Source of the DNA: Mesostigma viride
Taxonomy: Eukaryota; Streptophyta; Mesostigmatophyceae; Mesostigmatales; Mesostigmataceae
Length of the DNA: 64,000 nucleotides
Direction of reading: 5' to 3'
Assembly: GCA_009746045.1 (NCBI GenBank)
Contig: RPFO01000027.1
Coordinates: forward strand, 1,934,202 to 1,998,201
Shown: positions 8,503 through 38,208 of the stretch, piece after piece
Numbering within the stretch: position 1 is the first letter of the stretch
How the letters are laid out: every line of letters begins with the position of its first letter
Notes under the pieces: generated by a model
The model's database searches: none
Seen by the model: the letters and a program-made list of their open reading frames with translations, nothing else
Told to the model about the DNA's origin: nothing
Translations under genes and position numbers: made by a program

Positions 8503-8650
8503 GCGACAGTATGATGGCGAGCCGTTTGCTCGCATCAGGGCTGTGCGGCTTATTCTAGAGAGAAGCGACATCAAGCAGATTTTGCAGCCGGATGTGAGGG
8601 AGGGGCCCTGCTGGGGTGGGAATAAACTGCTGTGAGTGACCGATCCACTC

Positions 8651-9648: not shown

Positions 9649-9692
<44 letters not shown>

Positions 9693-9793
9693 CTCACGCA
9701 CGCACGCACTCACTCACTCACTCACTCACTCACTCACTCACTCACTCACTCACTCACTCACTCACTCACTCACTCACTCACTCACTCACTCAC
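8651..9793 (+). repeat. 1.15-kb tetranucleotide satellite, TCCC then ACCC then ACGC/ACTC
   Basis: (TCCC)n runs from 8651 to 9140, then a short junction, (ACCC)n at 9185-9644, (ACGC)n at 9646-9692 and (ACTC)n to 9793. Occasional 3-bp units break the register. The six very long open frames that cross it on both strands are satellite translations, not genes. Confidence 0.95.
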
Positions 9794-13216: not shown

Positions 13217-13299
13217 AACATGTTGGGACAATAACCTACATGCTTTGGACTTACGAGAGGCCCTAAATAACAAAGTTTGAAAAATCTCAATTTGTAGTA

Positions 13300-13331
13300 G
13301 TGTTCTAGTACAAATCCAGACGAGCTTAGGG
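13300..13331 (-). repeat. Right terminal inverted repeat of the DNA transposon
   Basis: Reverse complement of 6193-6224, 32 of 32 bases by eye; followed by the GCT target duplication. Confidence 0.85.
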
Positions 13332-13364
13332 GCTCTCAGCAGCAAGATTAGCAACACCCAACGC

Positions 13365-15044: not shown

Positions 15045-15141
15045 AGGAGGGCTGCCTTGCCACCAACGACGTCGTCCACCCCTTCACTTTGGAGGAATTG
15101 GACGGCGCCCTTGCTCGCCTGCGGTACGATGCGGCGGTCGG

Positions 15142-17394: not shown

Positions 17395-20300
17395 CTGCAG
17401 ATCCATGTGCCAGGAGGGCACAGTTAACCAGCGTGACAGCATGCGAAGCAGAAGTCAGCGATCCCGAGGTAAACCAGTTCGTAGGCGGCAGCAAATAGTG
17501 AACTAAATGCTGCCGAATGGTACACGAAGAAACGCGCCTAACCACTGCATGCCATTGTCAAGGTCATGTTAACCCAGGTTCATTCATCGCATGCCTGTTC
17601 TTTCAAGGTCCGTATCATATCTCATAATCACAGTGCTGGGAGATGACCCTATAGCGGCTTGCCATGGACATTGATGCCATGAACTACATTCACAAGGCAG
17701 GCCTCTGCTAATGATCTACAGTGCACCCATGTAGTTATGCTATGGTTCACTCGCACTGGACATGCCTGTCATGCAGCTGCTGACAAGGCAGGCCTCAGCG
17801 TACTTACTTTTCTGTATTCATTCCACCATGCAGTGGTGCACTCTCAGTGAACAGGAGGCTTTTTTTTTTCTTACCCGCGATATAGTAACGTTATTGGCTA
17901 GGCATGATTGGGCGTGCGTACACTCGCTAGTCCAGTTGTTCTTATTTCTGCGCTGCGTTCCGATGCCGGCCTATTACCTGTAGTTCATAATATCTACCTG
18001 TAGCAGTCACGAGTCTATTAATAAATAAATAAATTACCTGTAGCTTATCATATCTAAACGCATACTAGTGTACTGTAGCATGATAAGAAACTGTAGCTTA
18101 TCATATCTAAACGCATACTAGTGTACTGTAGCATGATAAGAAACTTCGAACTTACAGTGAACATGGATGCGCGGTCAAAGTCGTTCCCACCGCACCGCCC
18201 GCACGCCTTGCGCGGGTAATGCGCGTCGAGTGTAGTAACTTTCCGCTTGCAGCCGCGACAGTCAAACCAACGTTTGACCGCTTCCTTCACCGCCTTGACC
18301 ACGTGGTGGGACGCGACGCACTGGAAGGGCTTGCGCTCCGTGGTCACGTTGCACTGCAGCGGCAGGAGACGCCAAAGTTACGCCATGTACAAACAAAAGG
18401 TCAACATACGTACTGAAATTTATGGTACAATGCTGTGCAAAGAGCTGGCACTGCGACCACAAGCACGTGCGTGCAACCAAGAAGACCGACCACACGACCA
18501 GAACACACATCGTATAAGAACACACATCGTATAAGAACACACATCGTACCAGAGCACATTGTACCAGAGCACATTGTACCAGAGCACATCGTATTAGAAC
18601 ACATCACACCAAAGTCTACGTTCTGGTATGACGTTATTAATGAATGAATCAAAGTACTTGCGCTCCATCACAAAGTCACGCGGCGGCCGCAACACGACGT
18701 GCCAAAGAAAAGTTGCAGTACCACAGAAACGTCGCAGAGCGTGGGATGCCCCACCAGATCCACCACCGTGCCGTGCGCTAGTACCCAAGAGAAGAGCATG
18801 GGAAGGATACACCACGGTGCGAGTACAACCAAAGGCCCTGCGTTCGAATCCCAGTAGCATACCAAACTCAACCGCACTCTCCGTGGTCACCTGGCAGTAG
18901 ACCTGGCCACCCCTGCCCTTTGCCTGAGCGGGGGGGTGACACGCGAGCGCAAGCACATTGCGAGGAGCCTAGCGACGCGAGCGCGAGCACATTGGGGGGA
19001 GCCTAGCGACGCGAGCGCGAGCACATTGGGGGGAGCCTAGCGACGCGAGCGCGAGCACATTGGGGGGAGCCTAGCGACGCGAGCGCGAGCACATTGGGGG
19101 GAGCCTAGCGACGCGAGCGCGAGCACATTGGGGGGAGCCTAGCGACGCGAGCGCCAGCACATTGCGAATACCGAACAAATCCATGTGCCTGCGTGCCCGC
19201 GGCTCACACCGCGGCGAAAGACACACCGATGCAATGCAAAATGGAGATGGCGAAGCGCATGGACTGCGCAGTAGGGGGTTGGATTAGGAAAAAGTTGTAC
19301 AGACGCCGTATATAGTAACCTCACATAGTAACATCATAGAGCGACATCATAGAGCAACATCATATAGCAACATCATATAGTAACATCATAGAGCAACATC
19401 ATAGAGCAACATCATATAGTAACATCATATAGTAACATCATATAGTAACATCATATAGTAACATCATATAGTAACATCATAGAGTAACCTCATATAGTAA
19501 CCTCATAGATTAACATCGTATTGGGGGCTTCGGGGTGGGGTGGGGGTTGGGGGCTTCACATTTATATTTTTCTTATTTTTATTTGTAACACCATACAGGG
19601 AAGAGGGAATACATGACGGGCCCCCGTCGTGGTGGTGGCTTGCCCACCGTGGTGGCGTCGTCGTCGTCATGGGTGCCTTGGCATGTACCTTTCAACAGGC
19701 CATGCATGTACGTTGCAGCAGCGCCACCCGGCCTCTTAATTGCGTACGCGTGAAGCCGATATGTATCAAGGAGACAACCAGCGCAAGCCAGAAATCGGGA
19801 GAAGCCGATATGTATAGCCGTATGCCAACAGGTGTATGCAAATCGATTATATGCCATTAGTTCTTATGCCAATAGTTTAAATGCCATTAGTCACATGCAC
19901 ACATAGATATGCATGGATAGGCCAACAGAGCACGCACGTTGCAGCAGCGCCACCCAGGCACCATCATCTTGGTGATACCCTCCATCTTGGTCACCATCTC
20001 CTCCTTCTTTTCCAGCAGGTCGAACAACTGGGAGCGGCGCGCGTCCTCCACCTGTGCGTGGATGCCAGCAAAAAAGTTGATAGGGTGGCAAATGGGGCAA
20101 GGCGTGGTAGAGAGAGTTACAGCAGGGAAAACCGTGGGCGCCCCCCACCTGGGTATAGGCCAGCAACTGTGTTTTCTGACCCCTCCCAAAAAATTTCAAG
20201 CCCTAAGCCCTAAGAAGCCAACTGATGGGTGTGTCCTCAACCTGAGTGGATGGCAGCACCACGTTCAAGATAAAGATTACCTCTCTAACTCTAAGATATC

Positions 20301-23300
20301 ACATTAGATAAGTAAGGTTTAAGACTGATAGGGTAGGCATGTGAGACAGAGTCAGAGCTGGGAGCGGTGACTCCTTCGCCTGCGTGCATCTAACAGATCA
20401 TTTGATTCTTGATTCAAGTGCTTGTTTTACCTTCAATACGTCCTGCTGGACTAGTGCTGAAAGCATGCTCGCGTCCACCCATGCTCAGATGCCAGCATTA
20501 AAAGCCAGGCATCCATCGAATAAATTCATAATGACTTGTAATAGAATCAATACTGCTAGTAATACTGCTAGTAATGCTGCTAGTAATGCTGCTAGTAATA
20601 CTGCTAGTAATACTGCTAGTAATACTGCTAGTAATACTGCTAGTAATGCTGCTAGTAATACTGCTAGTAATACTGCTAGTAATGCTGCTAGTAATGCTGC
20701 TAGTAATACTGCTAGTAATACTGCTAGTAATGCTGCTAGTAATACTGCTAGTAATACTGCTAGTAATACTGCTAGTAATACTGATAGTAATGCTGCTAGT
20801 AATGCTGCTAGTAATACTGCTAGTAATACTGCTAGTAATACTGCTAGTAATGCTGCTAGTAATGCTGCTAGTAATACTGCTAGTAATGCTGCTAGTAATG
20901 CTGCTAGTAATACTGCTAGTAATGCTGCCAGTAATACTGCTAGTAATACTGCTAGTAATACTGCTAGTAATGCTGCTAGTAATACTGCTAGTAATGCTGC
21001 TAGTAATGCTGCTAGTAATACTGCTAGTAATACTGCTAGTAATGCTGCTAGTAATACTGCTAGTAATACTGCTAGTAATACTGCTAGTAGTATAATTAAT
21101 AGTAATGATAATAATAATAACAATAATAATAATAATAACAAGTGAGAGCGCAGTACCCACCCCCGCCGGCCACGGCCATCGCATCTCCGATATGGCTCGT
21201 ATCAATAGTAACAATAATTACATCTATATTATATTTATTTTATATTTATATTGAGCACATTACCCCACCTCGTCGGCCATGGCCATCAGATCCGACCCAT
21301 TCTCCCGGCTCCTCGCCAGCGCCGCCGCCGCGACGTCACCAAACGCCGCCATGAACGCCCGCTTGCTGCCGGACTGCTTGCCAACATCCGCCACCTCCTC
21401 CCGCGATGGCGGTGGCGCCGCCGGCTTCTTGCTGCCTCCACGATCCGCTCGATTGGCCCCCCCTTGACTCGCCTGCCTGCGCTCACCCCCCCCCCAACGC
21501 CTTGGGTTTGATGTGGTACGGCAGAGCCTAGCCCCCCCCCTTCTAGGCCGCCTTCCCCACGTCCAATCGGTCCATGGGTCGGCCCACTTTGGCCCGCTTG
21601 ATGAGCTGTCCCGCCTTGGCTGCTGGGTCTCGGGGAGTCGCGGTCGGCATTGCCCTCGCCTTGGGTTTGTGAGTCGCGGGCGGCATCGCGGGGGCGGGCG
21701 CTAGCTGCCAGAAATGCCTCCACCGCGCTCACAGGGCCGCCCCCCTGGCCGGCGCGGCTGCCCCCAGGGCCCCTGCGCTGGGAGCCGTCCGCCGGTTGGT
21801 GGCCGCTCGGCGCTCGCTGCGCTTGCTGGCGAACCGCTGTTAGAATGGGTGATGGAACGGGTGGGTGGGGTGGTGTGGGGGGGTGCATCTGAGGGGGTAT
21901 GTGGGGATGTTGTTGCGGGGATGTTGTGGGGATGTTGTCGTGGGGATGTTGTTGCGGGGATGTTGTGGGGATGTTGTCGTGGGGATGTTGTTGTGGGGGT
22001 GTTGTTGTGGGGGTGTTGTTGTGGGGTTGGGTGCTGTGGGGGTGGGAGTGGGGGACATCGTGTGTTGGTCGGGGTGTTTCGCTACTGGTATGTGTGCAAG
22101 ATGTCAATTTGATGTGACGGAATACCATGCTAATGAATATAATGTGCGCAAGGCTTGAGTGCGATGTGACGGAGTGCCGTGCTGAGCAAGTCCCATTTGA
22201 TGTGCTCAAGACGTGAGGCGTGTTGGGACGTGGTACCAGCGCTTATAGTCTTTGCACGAGGCATGCGTATACTTTATTTTCTAATCCTTGCATCTGCGGA
22301 GCGATGCGTCTCTAAGCAGTGGTCGACGAGGCAGGCGCCGCGCGACGTGCACCCTCGCAGGACAAACACCCGTGCTAGTCATGGGCAGGGCAAAAAATAA
22401 TCACAGCAACAATGATGATAATACATGCGTAAAGCTGAGAACAGGCGAGGACAGAGCGGCCCGTGCAAGGCAGGGCAGGCATGCTGGTCCTCGGCGCTGC
22501 AAAGGTACAATATATAATACAATATATAGCATTAAAGAGGACAGAGCGGCCCGTGCAAGGCAGGGCAGGCATGCTGGTCCTCGGCGCTGCAAAGGTACAA
22601 TATATAATACAATATATAGTATTAAAGAGGACAGAGCGGCCCATGCAGGACAGGGCAGGCATGCTGGTCCTCGGCACCTGCAGGGAAAGCCCTCGTCACG
22701 CACGTACTCTAGCGAGATAAGACAGGCCTGCCGGTCATGGGCAGCGCACACAAGCATGCGTATAAACTGATGCGAGCGCAGACGAACGTTCGGATATCGC
22801 AGAAAGTAACGCGACAGGACGCACCCCAGCAAGATAAGGCACCCCTGCTAGTCACGGGCCGGGGAAAAAATAATAACAACAATAATAGATATAGTAGTAT
22901 GCGTATATAATATAGTAGTATATAATATAGTACGCGTATATAATATAGTAGTATATAATATAGTAGTATGCGTAAACTGGCCTGCGCTGGTTGTCTCCTT
23001 GATACAGGAGTTACAGTATGCGTAAACTGAGGCTCCAGCACGCACCCTGGATGGCGGCCAGGGGCACCCTGGGGACAAAGTCGCGGCTGCGGATGGGATT
23101 CTGCTGCGGCGCGTCGAGGCCTGGAAGGGGGGGGAGGTTGAGGACAATTGGACGTGGACAAGAGCGAGGAAAAGGAGAAGGAAAGGAGGAGAAAGAGAAA
23201 AGGTAGGGTCTACTGGTCAGCGAATCGAACTGTATCGGTGCGGAGAAAAGGGCGGGGTCTGCTGTTGCGCGTGCATCCCTGGGAGGGGGGGGGCGGATGG

Positions 23301-26300
23301 GGAGGGAAAGGACAGCAGCTGGCACGAAAACAAGACGCAGACAATTAGGTCGGGGTCTGCTGGGGCGCGTTCAGCCCTGCAGTGCCCCAGTGTGCAGCAG
23401 AGAGTGAGGTGTGAGGATTCGCGTAAGAGTTGGAACTTCAGGACTTTGGCTTCTTGGCCATCTTTGGTGCACAGGGTGGCACAGTCAGGGGACCGAGACC
23501 GACATGGCAGTAGCATTAGTAGTAGGGGTGAACTTATTCCTGTCGTAGCAACTAATTAAATGAATGATGAGTGCGAACTTGTTCCTATCGTAGCAACTAA
23601 TGAAATGAAAGATGAGTGCGAACTTATTGCTATCTTAGCAACTAATTAAATGAATGATGAGTGTGTCCCATCGGCGTATGGGCAGCACAGTGGAAATGAC
23701 ACAAACGGACACAAACAAATGTCTCTATTCACTCCAGCATTCTCGTCTTAGCTCAGATCGCCAGGAATGGTGATCACTAAATGGCATCGAGCAAAGCAGT
23801 CTAGGGGCGATGAAGAAAGAAAAATAGGCCGGAGAGAGGACCAGGCGACACAGGGCAGACAGGGCATAGCACATAAAGAAAGAGACAAACATGATAAACA
23901 AGCCGCCAGTCATCGTGGGCATGCTCACCCGCCAAGCATGCGATGGATCACATGTGCCGCCTTGTTCGTACCTTTCCCAGCTTCTGCAACCTACACACTA
24001 CCTACACGCAGCAGGCTACCTAGGGCTGCTCGTGCGGTCATGCTGGGGTGCACCATGCTTTCATGGCGTGGGTGCAGCTGTGCGGTGAGAGCTGTAGGCG
24101 CAAGCAGCTGCTATGCGGTGAGAGCTGTAGGCGCAAGCTGCTGCTATACGGTGACTGGCTCAGGATCAAGGACTCAAAGAGATTGGGCCCACTTACATCC
24201 TCTCGATTGGTGTGAGCGAGGACATTGGCATTGGGCAGGGGAAACATGTTTGAAAGGTTTAAATCAGGTGTAGCTTTTAAGGATGAAAGGGTTTGAACGT
24301 GATAGGGTTTGAACATGTTAGGGTTTGCATACCTCCTTGTGCCTTGACATGAGCAATGACATGAGCCTGGGGGAGGGTAAAGAGGATTTGTGGGGTGGCA
24401 GCAGGGGCAGGAACAGCAAGAAATGGATAGCAAATGGATAGCAAATGAATGGCAAATGAATAGGAAATGAATAGCAAATGAATAGCAAATGGATAGCAAA
24501 TGAATGGCAAATGAATAGGAAGTGTAGATTAACAAAATAGCATCACCAAGAAGCATTTATGGGCGCCATCAGCAGTGCAATAGGTGTCGGAAAAAAGGAA
24601 AGAGAGGCATAAGGGAAGTGGCATGTTTAATATTAGGCATACTAGATGGCATACCCTGCGTGCTATATCCACAATTTTCTTGTCAAAACTTCGACACAAG
24701 TGTTACAACACAATTTATATGAGACAAATAGCACACCTCCATAAAGTTGCAGTACGCTTGACAGCCAGAAGTGCCACTAATGGCGAAGACAGCATCGAGT
24801 GCGATGCCCTTTCCAACATATTTTCAGCAGAAACCAACTGACAGCGAAGCGAGCGGACACCTCCCATTTCCATTGTGTTGTACTTTCATGTTGTGCACAG
24901 GACAGTGTTGATGCTACAAAATAGGGGAGGCAGGAAAAAGAGAACAAGAAAAAAAAAAGTGACAGGAAAGACAGGTGAGGGAAAAGAGCCCATGCTAGTA
25001 CGATCGAGACAAGGAGAAACTATGGCCTAAGAAGAGATAGATATGGGACGACATCGCTTTCATGACTGTCTAACAACTAATGGTAAATTCTCATGGAATT
25101 ACTAGCAACAACTAATGGATAATCCTCTTATCACCACTATCTAGCAGTCTTAAGACCCTCCCGCCCTTCCTCCCATCCTCGAAGTCGGCCACGTCAGCAC
25201 CATCGCACCCAACACGTATCGTCAACTCTTGATGGTACCCAATGATACACTGGCTGTCTTGTCCTGTTTACTCTGGAACCGATCGCTGCATGTGTCAGAA
25301 CATTATTGTACTTGCTGCATGTATCAGAACATTATTGTACTTGCTGCATGTATCAGAACATTATTGTACTTGCTGCATGTATCAGAACATTATTGTACTT
25401 GCTGCATGTATCAGAACATTATTGTACTTGCTGCATGTATCAGAACATTATTGTACTTGCTGCATGTACAAGATCGGGGGCTCCGCCCCCAAACCCCCGC
25501 TACTTGGCAGATTCTGTGCCTCAACGGCTTTTTGTGCCTCAACGGCGAGTACCAGCACAGCCGTACGCTCCCGCTCACACAGCCCGCCCACTAGCCTGTG
25601 ATTCCATGGATTACGCCACGATTCCATGCAAACTCATGGTGCCGGACGGTTTGCTGGCCTATTTTGGGAAGCCGGTGGCTGAACCGAACCGCAACTACAC
25701 CTGGTATGTCAGCACGTCAGATCCGTCCGTCAGCTTTCTCGCTTTTTGCCAGCAACCGCCAAATACCCCTTGAATCGGTCCTCTCCTCGCCGTTTTCCCT
25801 GCCAATTTCCCTCGTCCGTTCCAAACAACTAGGCCAATTTCAAGCTCAACCCGGAACGCAAGGCTTCGGCGCTTAGCTACTCGGAAAATGTGACCGTTAC
25901 AAGGAGGTTACGGACGTTTCTCCGCGCAACGCTTTTACTGATTGTCGGTTGGCACGCATTTGTTTGAGTTCCCGTCTTAGAAGAGTTTGGGTGCCGGACG
26001 TTACGTGGTGACAGGCCGCTAGAAAGCCTACGGACGCGATTCGCTGAAAGATTTTGTGGAAACAAATTTGGCGTTCGGATTTTCGCGCTACTCGGGTACG
26101 GACAACGTTTGCCGGAAGAGTTTGCGGAACAATTGGCGGACCATAATCGTAGTATAAAGGGCAATCAGAACATTATCGTACTTGCTGCATGTATCAGAAT
26201 ATTATTGTACTTGCTGCATGTATCAGAACATCATTGTACTTGCTGCATGTATCAGAACATAGACCGCCACACCACGCGCCCACCATCTTTCGAGGTCTTC

Positions 26301-29300
26301 CACATGTAAACCACACCACCCAACACATGACGACACGTCGACCAGAATCAACAAGCACCATCACCCGCTCACCATCTTTGAGGTCCGCCACATCCACACC
26401 GATAACATCCGATTTGCCTTGTCCGAAATGCTACCTGTATCAGAAGCCAGACCGCCACCACCACGCGCTCACCATCTTGAGGTCCGCCACTTCTGCGTCG
26501 TCCAACGATGACATCACCCGACGTATGCGCGCATTTGAGATCGCCTTCAGGGGATCGGGTTCCTTGGTCCTCGCATTCGGTAGCTCCGCAGTTCTAGCAC
26601 TCATACTTCTAGCATTCGGGGTCGCTGTGAGACCTGCGGCAGTGGCAGCGGCGTTGGCATTGGGGGCACTGGCATTGGCAGCCGAACTCTTCCCAGGGCC
26701 AGTAACGCCGGCCGTGGCGTTGGCCTTGGCGTTGGCATTGGCCTTGGTGGATGTATTGGCGTTGGCGTTTTCGGGTGTTGCGGCAGCGCCACGTGTCGTG
26801 GCAGCAGCAGCAGCAGCCGCTGTGGAGGCAGTGATCTTGCCGGCATTTCTTTCAATGCTGGCACCTCCCCTCGGCGCTTGCGGTGGTCCTTGCGACTTGG
26901 ACACAGGCGGCTGCGAGGGCTGCGGCTGCGGCGGTGGACGTGGGCACTGGGAAGGCATTGGGGGGGATGGTGCCGCAGGGGCCTGCCGCAAGGGCGCTCT
27001 TGGTGGGCAAGTTTGCGGTTTCGTTGATGATGGTTGCGATGGCGTTTGATGTTGCGGCAGTTTCGGTTGACTTGGCTGCGGCTGTGCTGATGATGGCCGC
27101 GATGATGATGGCTGTGACGTTTGGGGCTGAGATTTCTCGGCACTGCCACCGCGGGCGTCACTGTGACCTTTGTCCCTCTTGCCATCGATATCGCCAGCAC
27201 CTCCACCATCGCGGTCATCAGCGCCAGCATCACCGCCCTCACTACTGTACCCGTCCCTACCATCACCACCGCCAGCACTGCCATCCTTGTCGCCGTAGCC
27301 GTCCTCACCATTGTCATCGCCATACTTGTCGTCGGACCCATCCTCACTACCAGCTCCCGGGCCATCCTCACCGCCACCATCGCCGCCACCATCGCTGCCA
27401 GCACCGCCGCCATCATCGCCATCTCCCATGAAAATGTCAAGCTCATCATCGTCTGAGTCCCCACCGCCACAGTGATCATCGTCATCATCGCCGCCACCAC
27501 TGCCACCGTCATCATCACCGTTTCCCTCACCACCACCCCGGCCCACCCTATCCCTGGCACAAGCCGCCGAACCAGGGGGCGTGCCAGTTGTCGCCCCTGG
27601 GAGGGGCGCCTCAGCCCCCTGGGCAGCAGCGGTCCGCCCTTGGCCCCTGGGCAGTGGCGGACTGCTGCCAGCGATGCTGCCATCCGGAGCCCCCACCCTG
27701 GTGTCGTCTCGATCTCCACCTTGATGAGCGTCACCCGGAGCACGGACACCTGAAGCGTCACCTCCGTTGGGGCCACGGACACCGTCATTAGCGGCACGGA
27801 GAGCGCCGCCCGAGCCGCCAGCTTTCACCTTCGATGCCGCGCCGGCTGTGCGGGCACTAGCATTTGGCACCGTGGCACCACGCTGAATACCGGCACCTGC
27901 TCCCTCGTTGTCGGCTCGCTCATTCGGGGCAGGGTTACCAGTCCTTGCCGACTCCTTAGAACCGGTCGCAGGTGCGGCCGGCCCTTTTGCAACAGCGGAC
28001 AGGCCTGGTGCGAACTGTGGTCGGGACCCTGGGGCTTTCTGCTGCCCCCCAGAGTCACCCGGATGGGCTAGGCGTTTTTCCTTGCTATTCTGGCTGGCTT
28101 GCTTCGGCGCGCCAGCATAATGTTTCGAGGTGGGGGGATTGGAAGCTGAGGGGCCACCTGAGACTGGGCGATTGGCCCCCTGGTTTGAAGGGTGGGCGGC
28201 GGGGTTGGCAGCAGGGCGGGGTGGGGGTTGGGTGGAATGATCAGCAGCAGGTCGGGCTGGCGCAGATGTGGCGGGTGGCGAGACGCGGGGCAGTTTGGCG
28301 GCACTGGCAGCGGCCGCGGCCTGGTTGCGGATGCCAGTTTGGCCGTGGGTGTTTGCGTCGGCATCCTCCCGTTTGCGCTTCGCGGCTCTTGCGATTTCTG
28401 GTGGGAGGAGAGGAGGGGAAAGGGGGTGGGGTGGGGAAGGATGGTGAAAGTATGCGATAAGTAGTGAACAGTTTGTTACACTTAGTACAGACCAAGAAGA
28501 GACGGCAATTTCAAGTTACGTGCAGGAAGGAGAGGCTCGTGGTTCTCTGAACATAGTTTATTTATGATGAGATGGAAGGAGAGGCTTGATTTCGGCTTAA
28601 GGTTAGATCATACTGAAAAAGGTCTTGGACAGTTCCAAGCAAGATGCTAGCAGAAAATGCGAATGATATTTGTTTTTGAAATGGTACGATGAAGACTGAA
28701 TGTAAAACCGTGACAGGAACAAGGAATGCGCACTAGGAGTTCGCAAGGCAAACGTCGCTGTGGCATCAGTTCCACGCCTAGCTGGGTCAAGTGCTTGCGT
28801 GGGGGCTAGACCGTGTTCCTTGAAAAGTGCGACAAAGGTCCCATGAAACGCCCATGCGCCGTTTCCGAGACATCCACACCCACAGCCTGGCAGGATCTTC
28901 GTAAATAGATACAATCCTAAACAGATAGTAGTACAACCCTAAACAGATACACCCCTAAACAGATAGTAGTACATCCCTAAACAGATACAACCCTAAACAG
29001 ATACAACCCTAAACAGATACACCGCATAGATGGCATGAGACGGCACCTATCATTCACCGCCCAAACAAATGCAATAATTATAATGCTAGTCGCAAGACAC
29101 TAGCTCGGTCTTCCCAACCAAACACCCACCGCTCTCCTGCTCCCGGATAGCCTGCTCCCCGACACTCTTCAAATAGCGCGCCCCCACCGAATTAGGCCTC
29201 ATCTTGTCCGACCTGTTGGGATGCCATGGGGTGGGGTGGGGTGGGGTGGGGTGGGGTGGGTGGGGTGGGGTGGGTGGGGTGGGGTGGGGTGGGGTGGGTG

Positions 29301-32300
29301 GGGTGGGTGGGGTGGGGTGGGTGGGGTGGGGTGGGGTGGGGGGGTGGGTGGGGTGGGGTGGGGTGGGGTGGGGTGGGTGGGTGGGGTGGGGTGGGGTGGG
29401 GTGGGTGGGTGGGGTGGGGTGGTGGGGTGGGGTGGGTGGGGTGGGGTGGGTGTGGGGTGGGTGGGGTGGGGTGGGGTGGGGTGGGTGGGGTGGGTGGGGT
29501 GGGGTGGGGTGGGTGGGGTGGGGTGGGGTGGGGTGGGTGGGTGGGGTGGGGTGGGGTGGGGTGGGGTGGGGTGGGGTGGGGGGGTGGGTGGGGTGGGGTG
29601 GGTGGGGTGGGGTGGGTGGGGTGGGTGGGGTGGGGTGGGGTGGGTGGGGTGGGGGTGGGGTGGGGTGGGTGGTGGGGTGGGGTGGGGTGGGGGTGGGGGG
29701 TGGGGGTGGGGGGGTGGTGGGTGGGTGGGGGGGTGGGTGGGGTGGTGGGGTGGGGTGGGGTGGGTGGGGTGGGGTGGGGTGGGGTGGGGTGGGTGGGGTG
29801 GGGTGGGTGGGTGGGGTGGGGTGGGTGGGGTGGGTGGGGTGGGGTGGGGTGGGGTGGGGTGGGTGGGTGGGGTGGGGTGGGGTGGGTGGGTGGGGTGGGG
29901 TGGGGTGGGTGGGGTGGGGTGGGTGGGGGTGGTGGGGGTGGGGTGGGGTGGGGTGGGGTGGGGTGGGGTGGGTGGGGTGGGTGGGGTGGGGTGGGGTGGT
30001 GTGGGGTGGGGTGGGTGGGGTGGGTGGGGTGGTGGGGTGGGGTGGGTGGGGTGGGTGGGGGGGTGGGGTGGGTGGGGGTGGGGTGGGGTGGGTGGGGTGG
30101 GGTGGGGTGGGTGGGGTGGGTGGGGTGGGGTGGTGGGGGGTGGGGTGGGTGGGGTGGGGTGGGGTGGGGTGGGGTGGGGTGGGGTGGGAAGTAAAAGAAG
30201 AGGGGGTGAGGAAGCACCTTTTTAGAGAAGAAGAGGGGGTGAGGAAGCACCTTTTTAGAGCTGTCAGGATTGCGCGGGAGGGCGGGGGGGGGAGGGAAGT
30301 AAAGGGGCAGTGGAGGAAGCATCTTGTCGGAGCTGTCAGCATGGCGGGAAGCATTTGAGGAGGAAAGCTAAAGGGGAAAGGGGAAGGCATGTTGTCAGAC
30401 TTGTCGGGATGGCGGGTGGGTGGGGGGCATGGATGGAAGGGGGAGGAGAGGGGAAAGCATTATTTTGTCGCAGGTGTGGCATGTTGGTCAGGGGGGCGAT
30501 GAAGGTGTGTGTGTGTGGGGGGGGGGGGTCGAGAACTACACCATGGCATACAGCCAGACTCATACCCCACAGATGCCAGTAGTTCCGCAGCTGTTTCGGG
30601 GCCAGAAAAAAAAGACCCCTCGCACCAATCCACCCCACATTTGCTGCTCGCTCCTCGGCCACCTTTGGCTGTGACATGATAACGACCTACGGGGTATTTT
30701 GGCATAGTCTCTAGGCTAGTGGCCCCGTGCTGACCACCATTGCTGACCCCCATGCTGACCCTGCGCATGCCAGAAGTTCCTCGGCCATCAGATGATGTGA
30801 ATTAGGCTCCGCCAACCCCGCCGGCAGCCTACCCACGCCCACCATGATCCAGCCATGACATCCTTTTGTAGTTAACGCTTCTAGTTCGGAGGCCATCATT
30901 CGCCGCCTGATTCTACGGATACTTCCACCTGATTCTAACTCTGGCACCTGATACCAATTCTGCCAGCGCGGACTGTGACCTCCCCGTAGCCCATCACTAA
31001 CCCTGCGTATGCCACTAGCTCCTCGGCGGTCTTGGGCCGTGACAGCGGCTTGGCAGGCCGGGAGCCCTCGGCGTTGAAGGAGTAGACGCCCGCGGCACGA
31101 AGCGCGGACGAGGAGTTGATGGTCTGCGCGGGCCCTCGCTTGGCCCCCCGCTGGCTGCTGCCGGGCAGGGTGAATCCTGGGAGCATGGCGACAGGGTGCG
31201 AGAGGAGGGACGACCAGCGGGTCACTTTCACAATATATTAATACTATCAATATATTAATATTATTATTTATATTTACAAGCGGGTCACTTTCACAATATA
31301 TTAATATTATTATATACTAGTATTGAATATTATCCGTGTATCAGTATATTAATACTATCAATATATTTTTATTATTACTTATATTTACAAGCGGGTCACT
31401 TTCACAATGTTGCGACTGATGCCGTGACTGGTTCGATACAAGTTATGTGTAGGAAAGAACAATGCCCTATACAAGTTATGTGTAGGAAAGAACAATGCCC
31501 TATACATGTTATGTGTAGGAAAGAACAATGCCCTAGTTTGGACGCAGCAGGAGGTACCCTAGTTAGGACGCAGCAGGAGGTACCCTAGTTAAGACGCAGC
31601 AGGAGGTACCCTAGTTAGGACGCAGCAGGAGGTACCCTAGTTAAGACGCAGCAGGAGGTACCCTAGTTAGGACGCAGCAGGAGGTACCCTAGTTAGGACG
31701 CAGCAGGAGGTACCCTAGTTAGGACGCAGCAGGAGGTACCCTAATTAGGACGCAGCAGGAGGTACCCTAGTTAGGACGCAGCAGGAGGTACCCTAGTTAG
31801 GACGCAGCAGGAGGTACCCTAGTTAGGACGCAGCAGGAGGTACCATGACATAGTTCACAACGGCGATGGCAGTTGCTGCTATCATGACCTCAAAGGTAAC
31901 GTTGTTTTCTTAATCGCGATGTGGGATCGGCTTCAAGGATAGCCACTGCAGAGTGGCATGGTCACGATGTTGTAAGATCAAGAAGAAGAAACAAAAATAA
32001 CTTGGGAACTACATCGAGGTACATCGAGGTACATCGAGGAAAAGAAAAGAACATGGGGAATATACATCGAGTCACATAGAGAATAGAGAAAAGAGAAAGA
32101 GAAAAATACATCAAGGTCCATCGAGAAAAAGGAAAAATAGCACAAGCACATAGCGGGGGGGGGGGGGGGGGGGGGGGGGGGAAGAAAAGACTTTCCTTGT
32201 GGGGAACGCGGCAACATCGAGTATCACAAGAGTGTCATGTGCTTACAAGTAACGTCATTGGGAGGAGGGTTGGGGGGAAGGTACTGATAACTTTATTATA

Positions 32301-35300
32301 ATATGTTTACTATGGTTGGGGGGAAGGTACTGATATCTTTATTATCAATAGGTTTACTATGGTTGGGGGGAAGGTACTGATATCTTTATTATCAATATGT
32401 TTACTTTACAGACTTTCGGGTTGGCATATCATCGGCATATCATCGGCATATCATCGGCATGGCGATAACTAGAGAAAGGGCAACTACTTCCAGCCGTACC
32501 GGTGGCCAGGTTGCTTCCCTTGAGCGCAGACAACCCTGGAGGGATCGCATCTTGTCCATTAGTACACCAAACACAAGATTATATATATAGCAGGGTGTAG
32601 CTACTTCTACCCGTACCGGTGGCCAGGTTGCTTCCCTTGAGTTCCATCCGCTGCTTCGCCTGCAGCTGCTTGTACGCGTTGATCTGCGGAATTAAGTTTG
32701 GGACGAGACAGAGATGATAAGAAAAGGTTGGGTGTGCTCTAGACTACCGACTCGCGTCGACTCTGCGCTGCATATATGTGTTGATCTGTGAAAACAGGTT
32801 TGGGACGCAAGTAGAGTTGATAAAGGAAAGGCATGAATAGATTGAGGTCAGGTGCACTCTAGACTGACTACTCCCGCAAGTGCGCAGCTGCTTTGTCAAC
32901 ACTTACGTGTGCTACTGCCCCATCGCAGTACCAGCAGCTAGTGGACTTTTGCGTATACCCGGTGGAAAAGCAGAAGCCCCCCTTGTTGCGCTCAATACCT
33001 GCACCCGTACGCTACAACAACCACATTACTATAGTATAGCGCTTGAACAGAACTTCACACATCCCTCCCACCACGTAGTAATGGCCGCACTACGCCGTGT
33101 CCGGTTGATGATGACAGCACGTGTTAGAAAGTTGTATCATATGACCAAGTATAGTGACCACGGCTAGACCCCCTCACCACGTGGTACTGGCAGTTCTCCC
33201 CCAAGCCACGGTGGATGGCGGCAGACATTTTTAAACTGCATTGTGTACCCTAGCTGCTCTATCGAAATTAGTACCCCACCTCCTTCGAACTGGAACTGGC
33301 AGCATTCCCCTTCAGAGCGGTTCATGACGACGCTGCACGCGCACGTGGGCTACCACCGCATCATAACACCAGCAACTATTTGCGCTTACAACGTGGTACT
33401 GGCAGTACTCGCCCTCGGAGCGGTTAATGACGACGCTGCACGCGCGGCCATCTTTGGTCGTGCCGGCACAGACGGCAAAGTCGACCGAGGTGCCGATCTT
33501 GAACAGCTGATCCGCCAAGGTCACCTGGTGGGCATGACAGGATGCGGGTAGGAAGGGGGTCCACAAGAACGAGTAGGGTAAATAGCAGATGGGGCAGGAC
33601 ATATAACTGGCATACTGGCCCACCGGCGTGACTTGGTGGGCATGATAGGAGTGATGTTGTCTATGATAGGAGTAATGTTGTCTATGATAGGAGTGATGCT
33701 GTCTATGATACGAGTGATGTTGTCTATGATACGAGTGATGTTTTCTATATGATACGAGTGATGTTGTCTATGATAGGAGTGATGTTGACTATGATAGGAG
33801 TGATGTTGTCTATGATGGGAGTGATGCTGTCTATGATGGGAGTGATAGAACAGAATAGATAGGGGTAAGTAGAAGGTTGGGCAGAAGAGTATACTTGAAG
33901 AATTGGTCAGCCAGCTAACCGACGGGGCTGCCGTTATCGGGAGGAGAGAAAGGATTGGCGTAACAACGTGTACTACACTTGGACTGCCTGGCCAGCCAGC
34001 GCAAAATACAACAAGGTCTACAAACAAGACTGATAGCGCCTCTTATAGTGAAGGCGGTTGCCTTGCGAAGCGACTTTAAGTGACCGTGCGAAATGCGATC
34101 GGATTTCGTTGAAGGGTTATACAGGAGTAGCAGAAGGACAGTTGCATGCTGTGACATGCGCCGGCTGTTACTGAACGAAACAGAAACGAAACATGAGAGG
34201 CCAAGCTCCATACATGAGAAATAATGCATGAGAAGCCCCTGGGAGAAGATGAGAGCCACGGGGTCTCGAGAAGCGCCAAGACCACACAGGGGATATGTTA
34301 GGGGCTGGTCGCATAACACAGCGGAGCCTGACCCTATTTAACTCTCCCCTGACCCTAACAAAGCTTCATACCCAGCTACTAGTGATACTACACATCTGAA
34401 TATCAATCATATACTGATCATATAGCACATCATATACTGCTCAGAATTCAGATAGCAGTGTGTAACGTTGCTGCAATCAATTCGCCATTGGCCCCACATC
34501 CTGGGGCACATACTGGCCTCATGGCCACCGCCCAAGCAGGTACCTCCACAACCCCCACTCTTAGCAACCTCAGTGCCGCGAACCATCAACGCCATGGCCC
34601 CTACTTGCTAATTGCCATCCACTGCCCCAACTCTACACTTCTAGCAACCGTCCCCACATGTAGGCTCATCCCGCGCAACCCGGTGCTGCCTGCCGCCCCC
34701 ACCAGGTAGCCATGTACCAGCGCCTTCCGCAACATCACCAACAGGAACCCTCGATAAAAATGTCAACGTCTCAAATTATTGCCCTTACCTTGAGGCTCGT
34801 CCCGCGCGCGTCGGTGCTGCCCGCCGCCCCCACCAAGCCCACGACCGCGCCCACGCTCTCTTTCCAGTGCATCTCGTACGCGGCGCCGAACAGGAACAGC
34901 GAGACGCGAGCGCCCTTGAGGTCGGAGAGCGACCAGACCATGAAGCGGTTGCCAGATGCAGACTCCTTGGTGGGAGTCTTGTGTGACAGCACGCCGATCG
35001 TCGCCAGGTCGTCGACGCCGTCTTTCTGGCCGTAGAGGAGTGAGCTGTGTGTTTGTGTGTGCGTGTGTGTATGTGTGTGCGTGTGTACATGAGAAAGAGA
35101 GAGATTATGGGCCCAAAAGGATAAGTCAATGCTTGTGGTTCTCTGAACATAGTTTCTTTATAGTGAGATGGAAGGGTAGCCGCTATAGCTAGGTGCCTTC
35201 TGTATGTGCTCCACTCATTGCTTTAATAAAGAGTCTGGTTACCCTGGAGTTCCACAGTTAATAAAGACACTAGATAGCAGTGCTACTGCATAGTGGTAGT

Positions 35301-38208
35301 ACAGATTAGTACGTTATATTTGTGTTTGTGTTACGCGTGTCAAAACCTCTGTTATTGTGTTGGACATGTGCCAGCTTTCTGGCCGTAGAGGAGCCATTTT
35401 GCCAGGCACGCGCCTGCGCGCATGCTTTTAAATTTCCCCTGCGCTTGCATGCCCTTCATGATTACTCTAGCGCCTTCGAGTTTACGCGCCCCTGCACGCA
35501 TGCCCTCACAGGACACCATCAAGTTGAATGAGTGCATGCCCCAGCGTGTGAATGCCCTCGAACTGTTTCAAACGCTGAACCCTAAACCCTAAACCTTAAA
35601 CCTTAAACCCTAAACCCTAAACCCTAAACCCTCAAACTGCTTCGACGTGCGTCTCAGTGCCCTCACCAGACATCGCCCAGCTGGCAGAAGTTGGCGAGCG
35701 AAAAGCGCTCCTCCTGCACCAGGCTCGGGAGAAGGCGGTTCCTGGCCGGCACACGTCACGCAGAATAGGGCACACAGGGCACAGGGATACCAGCGAAGCC
35801 CCGATGGATGGTGGTGGAGGCGTGCAGGCATTGGGAGGTGAGGAGGTGAAGGGTAAATGAGGGATGCACGCTGCGTCCTGGCCAGCACACATCAGATAGC
35901 ACATTCCATCAAGGACAAGTGCTACCGTCTCAAACTGCCCACTACAAGTGTTTGTAAATATTCAATTGTTTATAAAGTATAGGGCCCACAGGGAGGTGTG
36001 TGAGCGCATGATGCACACGCAACGTTTCCAGAGGCAGTTCCTAAACAGCAAATGGCACAGTACAAGTGGACGCAGGCCCACGTAAACGCTATGAAGGAAT
36101 CAACCCAGCAACCAATTTTACAAATCAATCGGCTCCATGCATTTCCCAAGAAGCATCAAAACCAAATTTCTCAAGAAACACGCACCATGCAGGCTATCCG
36201 TTCCTTCTGGATTTGATATTCACCTGTTGATTGTGGCGTACACTGCGCATGCAAACTAGGCCAATGGTGCCGCAAGACAACCACTTCATCCCTGGCATCG
36301 CAAACGACCTCGCCCTTCCCCCCCCCCCCCCCCCCCGCTCTATTCCCCCACCACATTACATATTAACCCCCTCACTCCACCCCCCTACGCACTCCTTTCC
36401 ACACCCCCATTTCGCCCCTTCCCCGACACCCACTGCTCCCCCTGTTTCCCTTTCCCCCCCTTCCCCCTCTCAACCATCCCTTCTTAACCCCGCCCCTTCC
36501 CGCTTCCCCCCTCCCTCCTGCTCACCCCTACATCGCCCCTTCAAAGCGCCACCCACCCACCCACCCTTTGAGCCCTGCCTTCATCCCCCCCCTTCCCTTT
36601 TCAAGCCTCCCCCCGCCCCCTTGGCACCTACTTGACCCGCAGACCCGACCGCTTGTCCACCAGGTCCATCGCCGGCGGGCGGTGACTCGATACTGGCACA
36701 CGCGGTGGCCCCCCGCCCCCAGATGCCATGCCCCGCGCTGACTTGGCCCCAGGGACCCCGGTCGTCGCCCTGGCGTTTAGACCGCCACCGCCAGTATTAG
36801 CAGCGATTTGCCCGGAGGCACCGCTAGCACTATTACTCAACCCCCCCTTAATATTACTAGCGCTAGGTCTTGTTGAGCTTGCACCGGCATTATGAGTGCT
36901 GTCATGTCCGGTGGTGCATGGCTTGGCGGTTGGTACAGCTCTCTGGGTTGCCGCGGGGGGGACCGGTGGCCAAATGGGGCGCGACAGCTTGGCGGGGGCC
37001 GCCCCCGACGCTGCCCCCAACGCTGCCTTTGATGTGGGTGCTGACGCTGGCCCCGGCACGGATGCTGACTTGGCACGTCCCCTCTCTGCCGCCGCCAAAG
37101 GCTTGGCACTGGCCTTGTCATCTCCTGATTCTGCAACTGCCAAGGCAGGCTTGTGGCCCTTCACGGAGGGGTGCTTGGGGGCTGTTGCGGAAGGGGTTGG
37201 CCGCGTGGGTACTTCTGGTCGCTGCATCGGGCGTGATGGCTGCGAGGGTGGCAGATCCGGCTGTGCGGGTGGACCAGGGGAACCGAGTGGTGGTGATGCC
37301 GCTCTGGGTGGTGACGATGGCGGGGATGCATGGGGGGATGGTGACCGTGCCCTGGCTGTAAATAAGGTGTCATCCTCATCGGCGGCGGCTCTGGCGGGTG
37401 ACGTGTCCGCCTCAGCTGCCTCTTGGGACGCGTTGGATTTGGGGGAACAGGGGACGAATGATGGTACAGCATCTGCGAGCATGCCCATAAAAAACACCCG
37501 AATTTCGCTAAGTTTAGCAACCAATTTAATACCCAATTTAGCTCGTGCACATCAGACACCCATGTACGACATTCATCCATGGAGGCTAAACCCCCTCCAA
37601 AATTAACAAAGCATGCATGCACACCTCAAACGCCTGCACGTCAAAGCCCCTTGCACACAAAACACCCATGAGCACACCGCACCCATGCACACAATACACA
37701 GGTGCTTATTAATTGATGTACGCATATTGTCCAGCAAAATCATTATGCCAACTTGATTATACTCCACAAAAACAGGACAAGTGCCAGCTTGAAATGTTTG
37801 ATGGGGCGGTGCTTCTGTCAGCTACCCAACCCACCGATCAGGAAGAGCACGGACATGTGAGGCAGTGCTGATCGTTGTACCCTGCCTACAAAAGGCTCTG
37901 CATTGCTAAAATCAAGGTAGATGCATCGCATTCCAGTTCGGTCAGGTTCGCCCTCGCCCTGGCTTAAGGGTATCGCGGCTCAGTGGTGCGCGGGCTAGCG
38001 TAAGCGGCTCTGATGATTGACAACGATGGCTGACTACTGTAGCAACTGCAGTTCTGGTGAGCAATGGCAGAGTAAAGGGCGGTACGCGATCCTCAGAGAG
38101 CAATTGAAAAAAAATGTTACCTTCGTTCTCTTTCTCGCCGTCGCTAAATAGGGCTGGCTCGTCCGCGAGCTCTGATAGCAGGAGGTCGATGCCGTCGAAG
38201 TCGTCCAT
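17251..38208 (-). CDS. MCM10: MCM10 DNA replication initiation factor (14 exons)
   Basis: MCM10 binds DNA, the CMG helicase and polymerase alpha at origins. Exons on the minus strand, in order: 38208-38121, 37472-36632, 35741-35667, 35044-34789, 33524-33390, 32683-32617, 31176-31002, 29212-29130, 28397-26473, 21704-21561, 21472-21269, 20051-19962, 18353-18156, 17394-17251. Every junction is GT/AG and every phase closes, giving 4425 nt (1474 aa). Domains: acidic N-terminus (MDDFDGIDLLLSELADE), SGLRVKNRL entry to the OB-fold, OB-fold with TPTKESASG and VSLFLFGAAYEMHWK, zinc motif DFAVCAG...RACSVV...EYCQYH, GARYLK, C-terminal ribbon WFDCRGCKRK...KACGRCGG and the final PRGEEHAF. The protein is longer than animal MCM10 because of a 641-codon disordered exon. 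The weakest boundaries are 21704-21561 and 21472-21269. The 21-kb span is mostly satellite-rich introns. Confidence 0.88.
18156..18353 (-). CDS. MCM10: MCM10 exon 13, C-terminal zinc ribbon
   Basis: 66 codons in phase 0 at both ends, donor GTAAGT. Contains CNVTTERKPFQC, an amphipathic VVKAVKEAVKRWF segment and the two CXXC pairs DCRGC and CGRC. This is the DNA-binding C-terminal zinc motif specific to metazoan- and plant-type MCM10 and was the first firm clue to the gene's identity. Confidence 0.88.
18941..19163 (+). repeat. 34-bp minisatellite in MCM10 intron 12
   Basis: About 6.5 copies of GCGAGCGCGAGCACATTGGG plus GGGAGCCTAGCGAC. Confidence 0.9.
19318..19520 (+). repeat. 13-bp minisatellite in MCM10 intron 12
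   Basis: About 15 units of AACATCATATAGT with GAG/TAG and CCTCAT variants. Confidence 0.9.
19766..19800 (-). mobile_element. Micro-retroinsertion, copy 3 (35 bp)
   Basis: 35 bp ending (minus strand) in GCGCTGGTTGTCTCCTTGA and starting TCCCGATTTCTGG. Flanked by a perfect 14-bp direct repeat GAAGCCGATATGTA (19752-19765 and 19801-19814). It is a strongly 5'-truncated copy of the family at 833-904, in MCM10 intron 12, sense with the gene. Confidence 0.8.
19962..20051 (-). CDS. MCM10: MCM10 exon 12
   Basis: 30 codons, phase 0 at both ends: VEDARRSQLFDLLEKKEEM followed by VTKMEGITKMM. It corresponds to the Lys/Glu helix that precedes the C-terminal zinc ribbon in animal MCM10. The donor is GTGCCT (weak). 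Confidence 0.82.
20549..21090 (+). repeat. 12-bp satellite (AATACTGCTAGT)n in MCM10 intron 11
   Basis: About 45 units alternating AATACTGCTAGT and AATGCTGCTAGT. Because the unit is 12 bp with no stop in several registers, long frames are open on both strands; they are not genes. Confidence 0.95.
21269..21472 (-). CDS. MCM10: MCM10 exon 11
   Basis: 68 codons, phase 0, containing KRAFMAAFGDVAAAALARSR and SDLMAMADE. Matches in position the 'EF..LL..KSKH' helix of MCM10. The acceptor is inferred from phase (GCAGGCAG at 21480-21473) and its pyrimidine tract is poor, so the 5' boundary is uncertain. Confidence 0.7.
21561..21704 (-). CDS. MCM10: MCM10 exon 10
   Basis: 48 codons, phase 0, beginning LAPAPAM and ending AGQLIKRAKVGRPMDRLD. 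This resembles the conserved 'AKA..LIK..G.I...DPN' motif of MCM10. The acceptor TTTCTGGCAG is good; the donor GTGGGG is inferred from phase. Confidence 0.68.
21840..22060 (+). repeat. GGGGATGTTGT minisatellite
   Basis: About 15 irregular units of GGGGATGTTGT(TGC/CGT) in MCM10 intron 9. Confidence 0.8.
22447..22680 (+). repeat. 90-bp tandem repeat, ~2.6 copies
   Basis: Units start at 22447, 22537 and 22627 with GAGGACAGAGCGGCCCGTGC. The first two are nearly identical. In MCM10 intron 9. Confidence 0.9.
22980..23014 (+). mobile_element. Micro-retroinsertion, copy 4 (35 bp)
   Basis: 35 bp starting GCCTGCGCTGGTTGTCTCCT with an 11-base 3' extension (ACAGGAGTTAC). Flanked by a perfect 15-bp direct repeat AGTATGCGTAAACTG (22965-22979 and 23015-23029). 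Confidence 0.8.
25288..25466 (+). repeat. 29-bp tandem repeat, array 1
   Basis: Six to seven head-to-tail units of CATGTATCAGAACATTATTG plus TACTTGCTG in MCM10 intron 9. The same unit forms a second array at 26163-26262. Direct tandem units without spacers, so not a CRISPR array. Confidence 0.9.
26163..26262 (+). repeat. 29-bp tandem repeat, array 2
   Basis: Three to four units of the same 29-mer as at 25288-25466, about 700 bp away. Confidence 0.9.
26473..28397 (-). CDS. MCM10: MCM10 exon 9, giant disordered exon
   Basis: 1925 nt, 641 complete codons, open throughout. It begins (completing a Glu codon) IARAAKRKRED, a basic nuclear-localisation-like stretch that continues the helix ending exon 8 (EQAIREQES). 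The rest is low complexity: Ala/Pro/Gln/Asn-rich, then an Asp/Gly-rich acidic block (about 27200-27520), then Pro/Gln/Ser-rich and Ala/Asn-rich blocks. The last 25 residues (AISNARIRRVMSSLDDAEV) look folded. Donor GTGAGCG at 26472. Acceptor CCACCAG with a long pyrimidine tract. Animal MCM10 has no insertion of this size here, so this is lineage-specific expansion of a linker. Confidence 0.82.
28895..29030 (+). repeat. CCCTAAACAGATA(CA) minisatellite
   Basis: Irregular units of ACCCTAAACAGATACA and TAGTAGTAC in MCM10 intron 8. The CCCTAAA core matches the telomere-type repeat at 35578, but units are longer. Confidence 0.75.
29130..29212 (-). CDS. MCM10: MCM10 exon 8
   Basis: 83 nt reading SDKMRPNSVGARYLKSVGEQ then AIREQES. 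GARYLK aligns with the conserved GARNLK of MCM10. The acceptor CAACAG is preceded by a 960-bp (CCCCACC)n array. It joins exon 7 (GG plus G) and exon 9 (G plus AA) in phase. Confidence 0.82.
29226..30188 (+). repeat. ~960-bp (GGGGTGG)n satellite
   Basis: GGGGT and GGGT units run for almost a kilobase directly beside the MCM10 exon 8 acceptor. On the coding (minus) strand it is a pure pyrimidine-rich CCCCACC tract. Long frames over it are artefacts. Confidence 0.95.
31002..31176 (-). CDS. MCM10: MCM10 exon 7
   Basis: 175 nt encoding FTLPGSSQRGAKRGPAQTIN through VYSFNAEGSRPAK to TAEELVAYAG. It begins by completing the Gly codon left by exon 6 and ends GG, donor GTTAGT. Follows the zinc motif as in other MCM10 proteins. 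Confidence 0.82.
31425..31850 (+). repeat. 36-bp and 27-bp minisatellites in MCM10 intron 6
   Basis: Three units of TACAAGTTATGTGTAGGAAA... (31437-31535), then about 11.5 units of GGTACCCTAGTTAGGACGCA plus GCAGGAG (31533-31845). Confidence 0.9.
32270..32405 (+). repeat. ~55-bp tandem repeat, 2-3 copies
   Basis: Units of GGTTGGGGGGAAGGTACTGA followed by TATCTTTATTATCAATA, in MCM10 intron 6; a G-homopolymer lies at 32155-32180. Confidence 0.85.
32617..32683 (-). CDS. MCM10: MCM10 exon 6
   Basis: 67 nt reading INAYKQLQAKQRMELKGSNL then AT plus one base. It continues directly from ...EYCQYHV, as in animal MCM10 (zinc ligand His, then a basic helix). Both edges are repeated in the flanking introns (32487-32526 and 32737-32810). 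Confidence 0.85.
33390..33524 (-). CDS. MCM10: MCM10 exon 5, central zinc motif
   Basis: 45 codons, phase 0: VTLADQLFKIGTSVDFAVC then AGTTKDGRACSVVINRSEGE and YCQYHV. The Cys-X8-Cys-X11-Cys-X2-His pattern is the CCCH zinc motif that packs against the OB-fold in MCM10. Four decayed copies of its donor edge lie in the intron downstream. Confidence 0.9.
33650..33852 (+). repeat. 21-bp minisatellite in MCM10 intron 4
   Basis: About ten units of TCTATGATAGGAGTGATGTTG with A/C/G variants. Confidence 0.9.
34789..35044 (-). CDS. MCM10: MCM10 exon 4, OB-fold
   Basis: 256 nt reading CSLLYGQKDGVDDLATIGVL, then SHKTPTKESASGNRFMVWSL, SDLKGARVSLFLFGAAYEMH and WKESVGAVVGLVGAAGS. This is the core of the MCM10 OB-fold. 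The acceptor that keeps phase is the CACAG at 35049-35045, inside a (CA)n tract; the nearer CCAG at 35025 would give a stop. Donor GTAAGG. Confidence 0.9.
35578..35633 (+). repeat. Interstitial telomere-type repeat (CCCTAAA)n
   Basis: About eight units, mostly CCCTAAA with two CCTTAAA variants, in MCM10 intron 3. TTTAGGG is the plant and common green-algal telomere repeat. Confidence 0.85.
35667..35741 (-). CDS. MCM10: MCM10 exon 3
   Basis: 75 nt reading NRLLPSLVQEERFSLANFCQ then LGDV, following SGLRVK of exon 2. Corresponds to the segment leading into the OB-fold. Donor GTGAGG, acceptor GGCCAG. Confidence 0.85.
36632..37472 (-). CDS. MCM10: MCM10 exon 2, disordered N-terminal region
   Basis: 841 nt, 279 complete codons. 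It starts (completing an Asp codon) AVPSFVPCSPKSNASQEA and is mostly Ser/Pro/Ala-rich low complexity. It ends PPAMDLVDKRSGLRVK; 'SGLR' is the conserved entry to the MCM10 core. Donor GTAGGT. Acceptor CTCGCAG. Confidence 0.82.
38121..38208 (-). CDS. MCM10: MCM10 exon 1
   Basis: ATG at 38208; 29 codons plus one base: MDDFDGIDLLLSELADEPAL ... EKENE, donor GTAACA. The short acidic, leucine-rich start is typical of MCM10 N-termini. Phase 1 joins exon 2 to give ENED. Confidence 0.82.

Follow-up and report, generated by a model that had tools for sequence, protein, structure and literature searches.

The introns of MCM10 and of its neighbour CFAP65 contain direct copies of the adjoining exon edges. 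It is quite likely that small tandem duplications crossing the splice junctions have been tolerated in these genes, and that the copies have since decayed while the introns lengthened at their ends. The initial annotation of this DNA had read such copies in MCM10 as intron growth by duplication across splice junctions, and the sequence appears to support this reading with copies at 28 of 45 edges and with complete units of 129, 92 and 80 bp.

Exon-edge copies in MCM10 and CFAP65

Both genes are located on the minus strand of the window, which is the whole stretch of DNA analysed (64,000 nucleotides; contig C335, positions 1934202-1998201, within a 440-Mb assembly of 2243 contigs). MCM10 was identified by a Pfam zf-primase match in 33312-33767 (E 3e-12) and by an Mcm10 match in its C-terminal exon (18054-18377), which at 22 bits is under the family cut-off of 26.8. 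Its exons are also supported by tblastn with the MCM10 protein of the prasinophyte alga Cymbomonas tetramitiformis, the better of the two MCM10-like proteins found (47% identity over 73% of the searched part). The DNA is likely that of a green alga. CFAP65, the next gene, carries an Ig_CFAP65 match in 62500-62889 (Pfam), and its exons were traced one by one using tblastn with a 1686-residue homologue. The position of each splice edge was set manually, using reading frames together with alignments to homologues and splice signals, which gave a set of 45 edges (19 in MCM10 and 26 in CFAP65; 21 acceptors and 24 donors) from two genes of one assembly. Ten other open reading frames of the window were compared with Pfam, and three of them gave matches.

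Other repeats and elements are present in and around the window. Two long overlapping plus-strand frames at 13281-16737 form a putative non-LTR retrotransposon (endonuclease and reverse-transcriptase motifs recognized by eye), and broken frames similar to these occur at 41743-44444. A Gag-like frame and a zinc-knuckle frame at 47221-49279 (Pfam matches under cut-offs) perhaps belong to an LTR element. MCM10 introns hold a 960-bp GGGGT-type array (29227-30188) and telomere-like AAACCCT repeats (35570-35637), strong G skew is seen over 28001-32000, and a 1.1-kb array of CTCC/CACC units occupies 8648-9794. A short-unit satellite of about 30 kb, with long stretches open in reading frames, lies to the right of the window, between roughly 82 and 112 kb of the window scale (L003-L006). 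At L021 8293-9023, a near-perfect palindrome of about 84 bp occurs three times at 326-bp steps.

For each splice edge, the adjoining 700 bp of intron were aligned with a 60-nt query comprising 40 exon and 20 intron bases, with a threshold score of at least 16. A direct copy was found at 28/45 edges, at 27 of which at least 8 exon bases were aligned. This score was reached by none of the 45 reverse-complement queries, by none of the 45 queries against the flank on the opposite side of the exon, and by none of 73 exon interiors compared with both 700-bp flanks. The copies therefore lie on the intron side and in the same orientation as their parents, as had been described, and their direct placement beside the parent (28/45 in the own flank vs 0/45 for the reverse complement) is what a tandem duplication would leave. 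The mean score was 19.3 in the own flank, compared with 10.4 for the reverse complement, 10.2 beyond the other exon side and 10.3 in mismatched or random flanks. When ranked against mismatched and random flanks, 28/45 edges have p<=0.05, where about two are expected by chance, and 22/45 have p<=0.01 (8/21 acceptors and 14/24 donors). Seventeen of the 45 edges gave no adjoining copy with the 60-nt query. With a longer query, at least one copy was detected at 29/45 edges, compared with 11/450 comparisons using mismatched flanks; a few of the 29 are repeats next to the edge that consist of intron sequence only.

The copies reported from the MCM10 introns are real, with 11 of the 19 MCM10 edges at p<=0.05; the other eight are the exon 1 donor, both edges of exon 2, the exon 3 donor, the acceptors of exons 7 and 9, and both edges of exon 13. 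An earlier test on MCM10 only, using 800-bp flanks, gave mean scores of 17.9 in the own flank, 10.8 for the reverse complement and 10.0 for mismatched flanks. In this test, 46 exon interiors averaged 10.8 and only one of them reached 16; interior exon segments thus do not match the introns as often as the edges do. It is extremely improbable that the edge copies represent chance or low-complexity similarity. The exon 13 acceptor copy and copy 4 of the exon 5 donor edge score close to background, and the 11 mismatched comparisons mentioned above pass a looser threshold. However, the controls rule out chance for the set as a whole, and chance was rejected on the own-flank scores as against the reverse-complement, mismatched and interior controls.

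The copies found in MCM10 are listed below, with the parent exon of the longest MCM10 ladder first; fractions denote identical positions.

33390..33524, minus: zinc-finger exon 5, the parent exon of the longest ladder in MCM10; zf-primase in Pfam, tblastn to Cymbomonas MCM10
33283..33342, minus: exon 5 donor-edge copy 1; offset 103; 51/60; donor GT lost (CG)
33173..33220, minus: exon 5 donor-edge copy 2; offset 212; 36/48; GT kept
33070..33121, minus: exon 5 donor-edge copy 3; offset 317; 40/51; GT kept
32912..33007, minus: exon 5 donor-edge copy 4, weak; offset 431; 63/89; near threshold
33615..33650, minus: exon 5 acceptor-edge copy; offset 108; 27/36; p=0.006
32763..32823, minus: exon 6 acceptor-edge copy; offset 102; 47/60
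32845-32876, minus: exon 6 acceptor, further block; matches 32725-32756 at offset 120, nearly in register
32484..32524, minus: exon 6 donor-edge copy; offset 117; 39/41; abrupt ends, spacer without homology
30749..30785, minus: exon 7 donor-edge copy; offset 242; 31/37
30614..30676, minus: exon 7 donor-edge copy; offset 368; 48/63
30570..30600, minus: exon 7 donor-edge copy, weak; offset 436; 22/31
26356..26394, minus: exon 9 donor-edge copy; offset 100; 35/38
26248..26303, minus: exon 9 donor-edge copy; offset 189; 48/54; intron part also matches, 32/36
34662..34724, minus: exon 4 donor-edge copy; offset 131; 50/59
35370..35393, minus: exon 4 acceptor-edge copy (exon bases only); offset 353; 22/24; p=0.006
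35861..35894, minus: exon 3 acceptor-edge copy; 26/32; p=0.017
21146..21185, minus: exon 11 donor-edge copy, edge placement uncertain; offset 107; 31/40; p=0.0025
20233..20258, minus: exon 12 acceptor-edge copy; offset 190; 23/26; p=0.022
19704..19732, minus: exon 12 donor-edge copy; offset 226; 27/29
18879..18896, minus: exon 13 acceptor-edge copy, not significant; 16/18; p=0.071

Alignment recovered the copies that had been named at exons 4, 5, 6, 7, 9 and 12. The exon 11 donor copy is significant, while the placement of its edge is uncertain; at the exon 13 acceptor the match is present without reaching significance. Copies at the exon 4 donor, exon 12 donor, exon 5 acceptor and exon 3 acceptor are additional to those of the initial annotation. 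The copies found in CFAP65 are as follows; all copies in the two lists lie inside introns of the respective gene models.

63790..63815, minus: acceptor-edge copy (exon starts 63704); offset 104; 24/26
63924..63975, minus: second copy of the acceptor of the exon starting 63704; offset 237; 39/52
63248..63285, minus: donor-edge copy; offset 266; 34/37
62863..62904, minus: acceptor-edge copy; offset 79; 36/42
62230..62290, minus: acceptor-edge copy; offset 107; 44/61
61857..61908, minus: donor-edge copy; offset 141; 43/52
57282..57317, minus: acceptor-edge copy; offset 467; 27/36
56354..56402, minus: donor-edge copy; offset 210; 34/49
56217..56275, minus: second copy of the same donor; offset 344; 46/59
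54949..54988, minus: acceptor-edge copy; offset 363; 34/40

Edge copies are also present in three more genes, which were chosen for having repeats (p 0.0025 to 0.005). These are at an acyl-carrier-protein-like acceptor, a peroxiredoxin/glutaredoxin-like donor (both putative names, read from translations) and a donor on contig C1. The phenomenon had been described as that of MCM10 alone, which does not hold given the copies in CFAP65 and in these three genes.

When only exon bases were used as query, GT was found at the expected place in 17/19 donor copies, indicating that the copies cross the junction at the DNA level; as had been proposed, they would thus create decoy splice sites. An origin from spliced mRNA was rejected since the copies contain intron bases and GT. 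Judged from the sequence, the decoy donors are not visibly purged. It is very unlikely that selection has kept the copies as functional decoys, for example as extra U1 sites which aid splicing or block early polyadenylation. Among the donor copies whose match reaches the edge, 16/18 have GT where 13.0 are expected from exon identity, and this favours such a role. However, the excess is small, AG precedes only 3/5 acceptor copies (exon-only query) where 4.1 are expected, and exon and intron parts of the copies are equally identical (0.836 vs 0.839, arrays included).

Tandem units, ladders and their probable origin

In the freshest cases the copies form complete head-to-tail units (129, 92 and 80 bp), each composed partly of exon edge and partly of intron. 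The 129-bp unit belongs to a CFAP65 donor located to the right of the window (72015 on the window scale) and consists of 56 exon and 73 intron bases. Its second copy matches the first at 52/56 positions in the exon part and 70/73 in the intron part, the exon part of the third copy matches the exon at 52/56, and the fourth copy is older. The exon parts of the second and third copies are closer to each other (54/56) than either is to the exon, so the newest step may have been growth of an array inside the intron, with the crossing of the junction being older. The 92-bp unit, at another CFAP65 donor, includes 10 exon bases; units two to six match the first at 85, 86, 85, 84 and 77 of 92 positions and the seventh at 66/92. 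The 80-bp unit is present in about three copies, with about 10 exon bases, in the gene on contig C1, where a 10-kb stretch has one coding-like segment; the intron part is identical at 54/58 positions between the first two copies.

In MCM10, the exon 5 ladder proceeds in steps of 103, 109, 105 and 114, and the exon 6 acceptor has two homologous blocks which are nearly in register. At the 25 edges whose copy includes 8 or more exon bases, two arrays being disregarded, the offset of the nearest copy is 79-141 at 15 edges and 190-467 at 10, with a median of 131. The nearest copy is the most alike in 7/9 ladders (p=0.18), making the age gradient only a tendency. A perfect 53-bp tandem duplication at 18038-18145, whose start lies some 10 bases into the intron that follows exon 13, has the appearance of a very recent event beside a junction.

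The exon 6 donor differs from these cases. Its copy is a 41-bp block with abrupt ends and an unrelated spacer. The copy itself is identical at 39/41 positions (32484-32524 vs 32601-32641), yet its surroundings are unlike those of the parent: flanks and spacer align no better than shuffles do (417 and 335 out of 500 were as good). Complete head-to-tail units are absent here, and to judge by these alignments the copy does not have the appearance of a recently formed tandem unit. This copy and the 17 edges without one count against the tandem-duplication account, as do the weak age gradient and the retention of AG in 3/5 acceptor copies. The copies might instead be short copied blocks, or long target duplications around inserted filler, made by staggered-break repair or by an element. 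A self-comparison of 264 kb, which yielded 71 local direct-repeat pairs after masking, also fits this alternative, as the homology is shorter than 0.75 of the offset in 63 pairs and nearly as long as the offset in eight; the mask, however, removed arrays of at least 2.8 copies, which biases against tandem cases. Many of the short pairs lie on splice signals, as judged by eye. Against displaced copying, the units of the best-preserved ladders are complete, intron part included, and sequence common to different introns is rare, with two cross-intron matches among 45 flanks. One stretch of 45 bp (91%) common to the acceptor flanks of MCM10 exons 4 and 9 is a dispersed repeat and not an edge copy. 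Displaced copying with filler is therefore improbable as a general account, and it was dropped as the main model because complete units were found, although it accounts better for the exon 6 donor.

Tandem duplication across the junctions, the preferred account, could proceed as follows. Small tandem duplications would recur in the introns of this genome, and where one of them spans an exon-intron border, the added exon edge and splice site would lie on the intron side. If the exon-proximal site is the one used, normal mRNA would still be produced, so the duplication would be nearly neutral and could be retained. The copy would then decay, and the junction or its copies would be duplicated again, in whatever order, stacking units and making the intron longer at its end. 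Duplications within exons would be removed by selection, and it is possibly for this reason that copies are seen on the intron side only. Old junction copies may stay recognizable because the parent exon is constrained and only one side decays, whereas duplications lying wholly in the intron would fade faster from view as both sides decay. Slippage between repeats is a source of short tandem duplications, and either slippage or break repair may be the molecular cause here. Part of one report describes short tandem duplications as arising from the repair of breaks, possibly from nearby nicks (PMC8355091).

Splice junctions compared with intron interiors

Intron sequence as a whole is rich in local duplication. 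At a score of at least 18 in a one-sided search, 22/45 edges have a copy, compared with 28.9% of 402 intron 60-mers when arrays are counted. Without short-period arrays, the proportion is 7.7% of 272 intron 60-mers and 3.4% of 904 intergenic 60-mers, and the reverse-complement and mismatched controls give 0 to 2%. In a two-sided search with arrays counted, 160/402 interior intron 60-mers reach this score, against 22/45 edges. Introns thus being full of local duplications, a junction-specific mechanism is not required.

It is nevertheless conceivable, if rather doubtful, that splice junctions are true hotspots at which duplication is several times commoner, for example because the frozen edge mispairs with a fresh copy and turns into a self-renewing growth point. 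Without arrays, intronic 60-mers adjoining a junction (no exon bases) match in 10/35 cases, compared with 21/272 for interiors (Fisher p=8e-4), and the frequency by distance from the junction is 21/96 within 90 bp, 7/125 at 90-200 and 9/159 at 200-400. Beyond 400 bp, however, it climbs again to 47/324, and several of the junction-adjoining matches are intron-only arrays. With arrays counted, the corresponding frequencies are 37/121, 29/156 and 49/216, against 168/498 deeper in the intron. The regular spacing of the exon 5 ladder also favours a hotspot, while the data come from two genes only.

Simulation gave a similar picture. A threefold junction rate produced copies at 47% of edges and 23% of interiors, and a uniform rate of 0.016 at 49% and 53%, respectively. 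The masked data (edges 22/45, interiors 53/279) are nearer to the threefold rate, whereas the data with arrays counted (22/45 and 160/402) are close to the uniform one. The evidence for a junction hotspot is mixed. As intron ends do not exceed deep intron with arrays counted and a uniform rate can produce as large a share of edge copies, a hotspot is not claimed. The wider proposal, that intron ends are self-renewing growth points genome-wide, where a frozen exon edge pairs with its own copies and adds units of about 80-140 bp, is unlikely. If it were true, introns would be built outward from their splice sites and would contain series of usable decoy donor sites which the spliceosome has to pass over.

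Comparison with known systems

Intron lengthening is mostly discussed as driven by transposons. Here, short tandem duplications crossing the junctions would be responsible, and their traces can be read at over half of the junctions examined in two genes. Real and decoy splice sites occur here naturally in almost the same sequence context, so that the choice of the exon-proximal site could be tested, and the copies could allow intron growth to be dated copy by copy. Among the matches listed in a search of mostly non-subscription literature, there was no report of edge copies at this density or at most junctions of a gene. An account by Zhuo from 2007 is said to derive human introns from tandem arrays in which splice sites are duplicated; the alternative introns reportedly lie within those arrays, unlike the copies described here.

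Introners, as outlined in part of PMC9860276, are likewise repeated sequences that make or enlarge introns in many eukaryotes. However, introners share sequence among introns, whereas the ladders here are nearly all private to one junction: no family shared across introns was seen beyond the two cross-intron matches among 45 flanks, and a search of the assembly with the exon 9 ladder, in which very common words are skipped, gave one match. A mobile element common to the introns was rejected on the same counts. The duplications made by staggered-break repair resemble the present ones as a molecular source of short tandem duplications; they come from induced breaks in mouse embryonic stem cells, and the part of PMC8355091 considered here does not link them to splice sites.

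The initial annotation knew of no described process matching this signature exactly. Tandem duplication crossing an intron-exon boundary has in fact been published, judging from parts of the sources, for the RdRp gene of potato (PMC4974935) and for duplicated genes in humans, where it takes the form of internal tandem repeats at exon-intron boundaries (PMC2812944). The tandem-duplication model with duplicated splice sites has also been reviewed (PMC3443670, in part) and discussed for Drosophila (PMC2891723, in part). The copies described here are similar to intron creation by tandem duplication in that a small duplication reuses duplicated splice sites, with the unit in potato crossing the boundary. 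In those cases, as far as the excerpts of PMC3443670 and PMC4974935 go, a new intron results, whereas the copies here lie within existing introns, occur at over half of the 45 edges and are stacked into ladders. The repeats of human segmental duplications are similar in that tandem repeats across exon-intron borders multiply splice sites. However, the human cases, as given in part of PMC2812944, comprise 27 intron modifications in recent paralogues, while those described here are decayed, layered copies at 28/45 edges of two genes.
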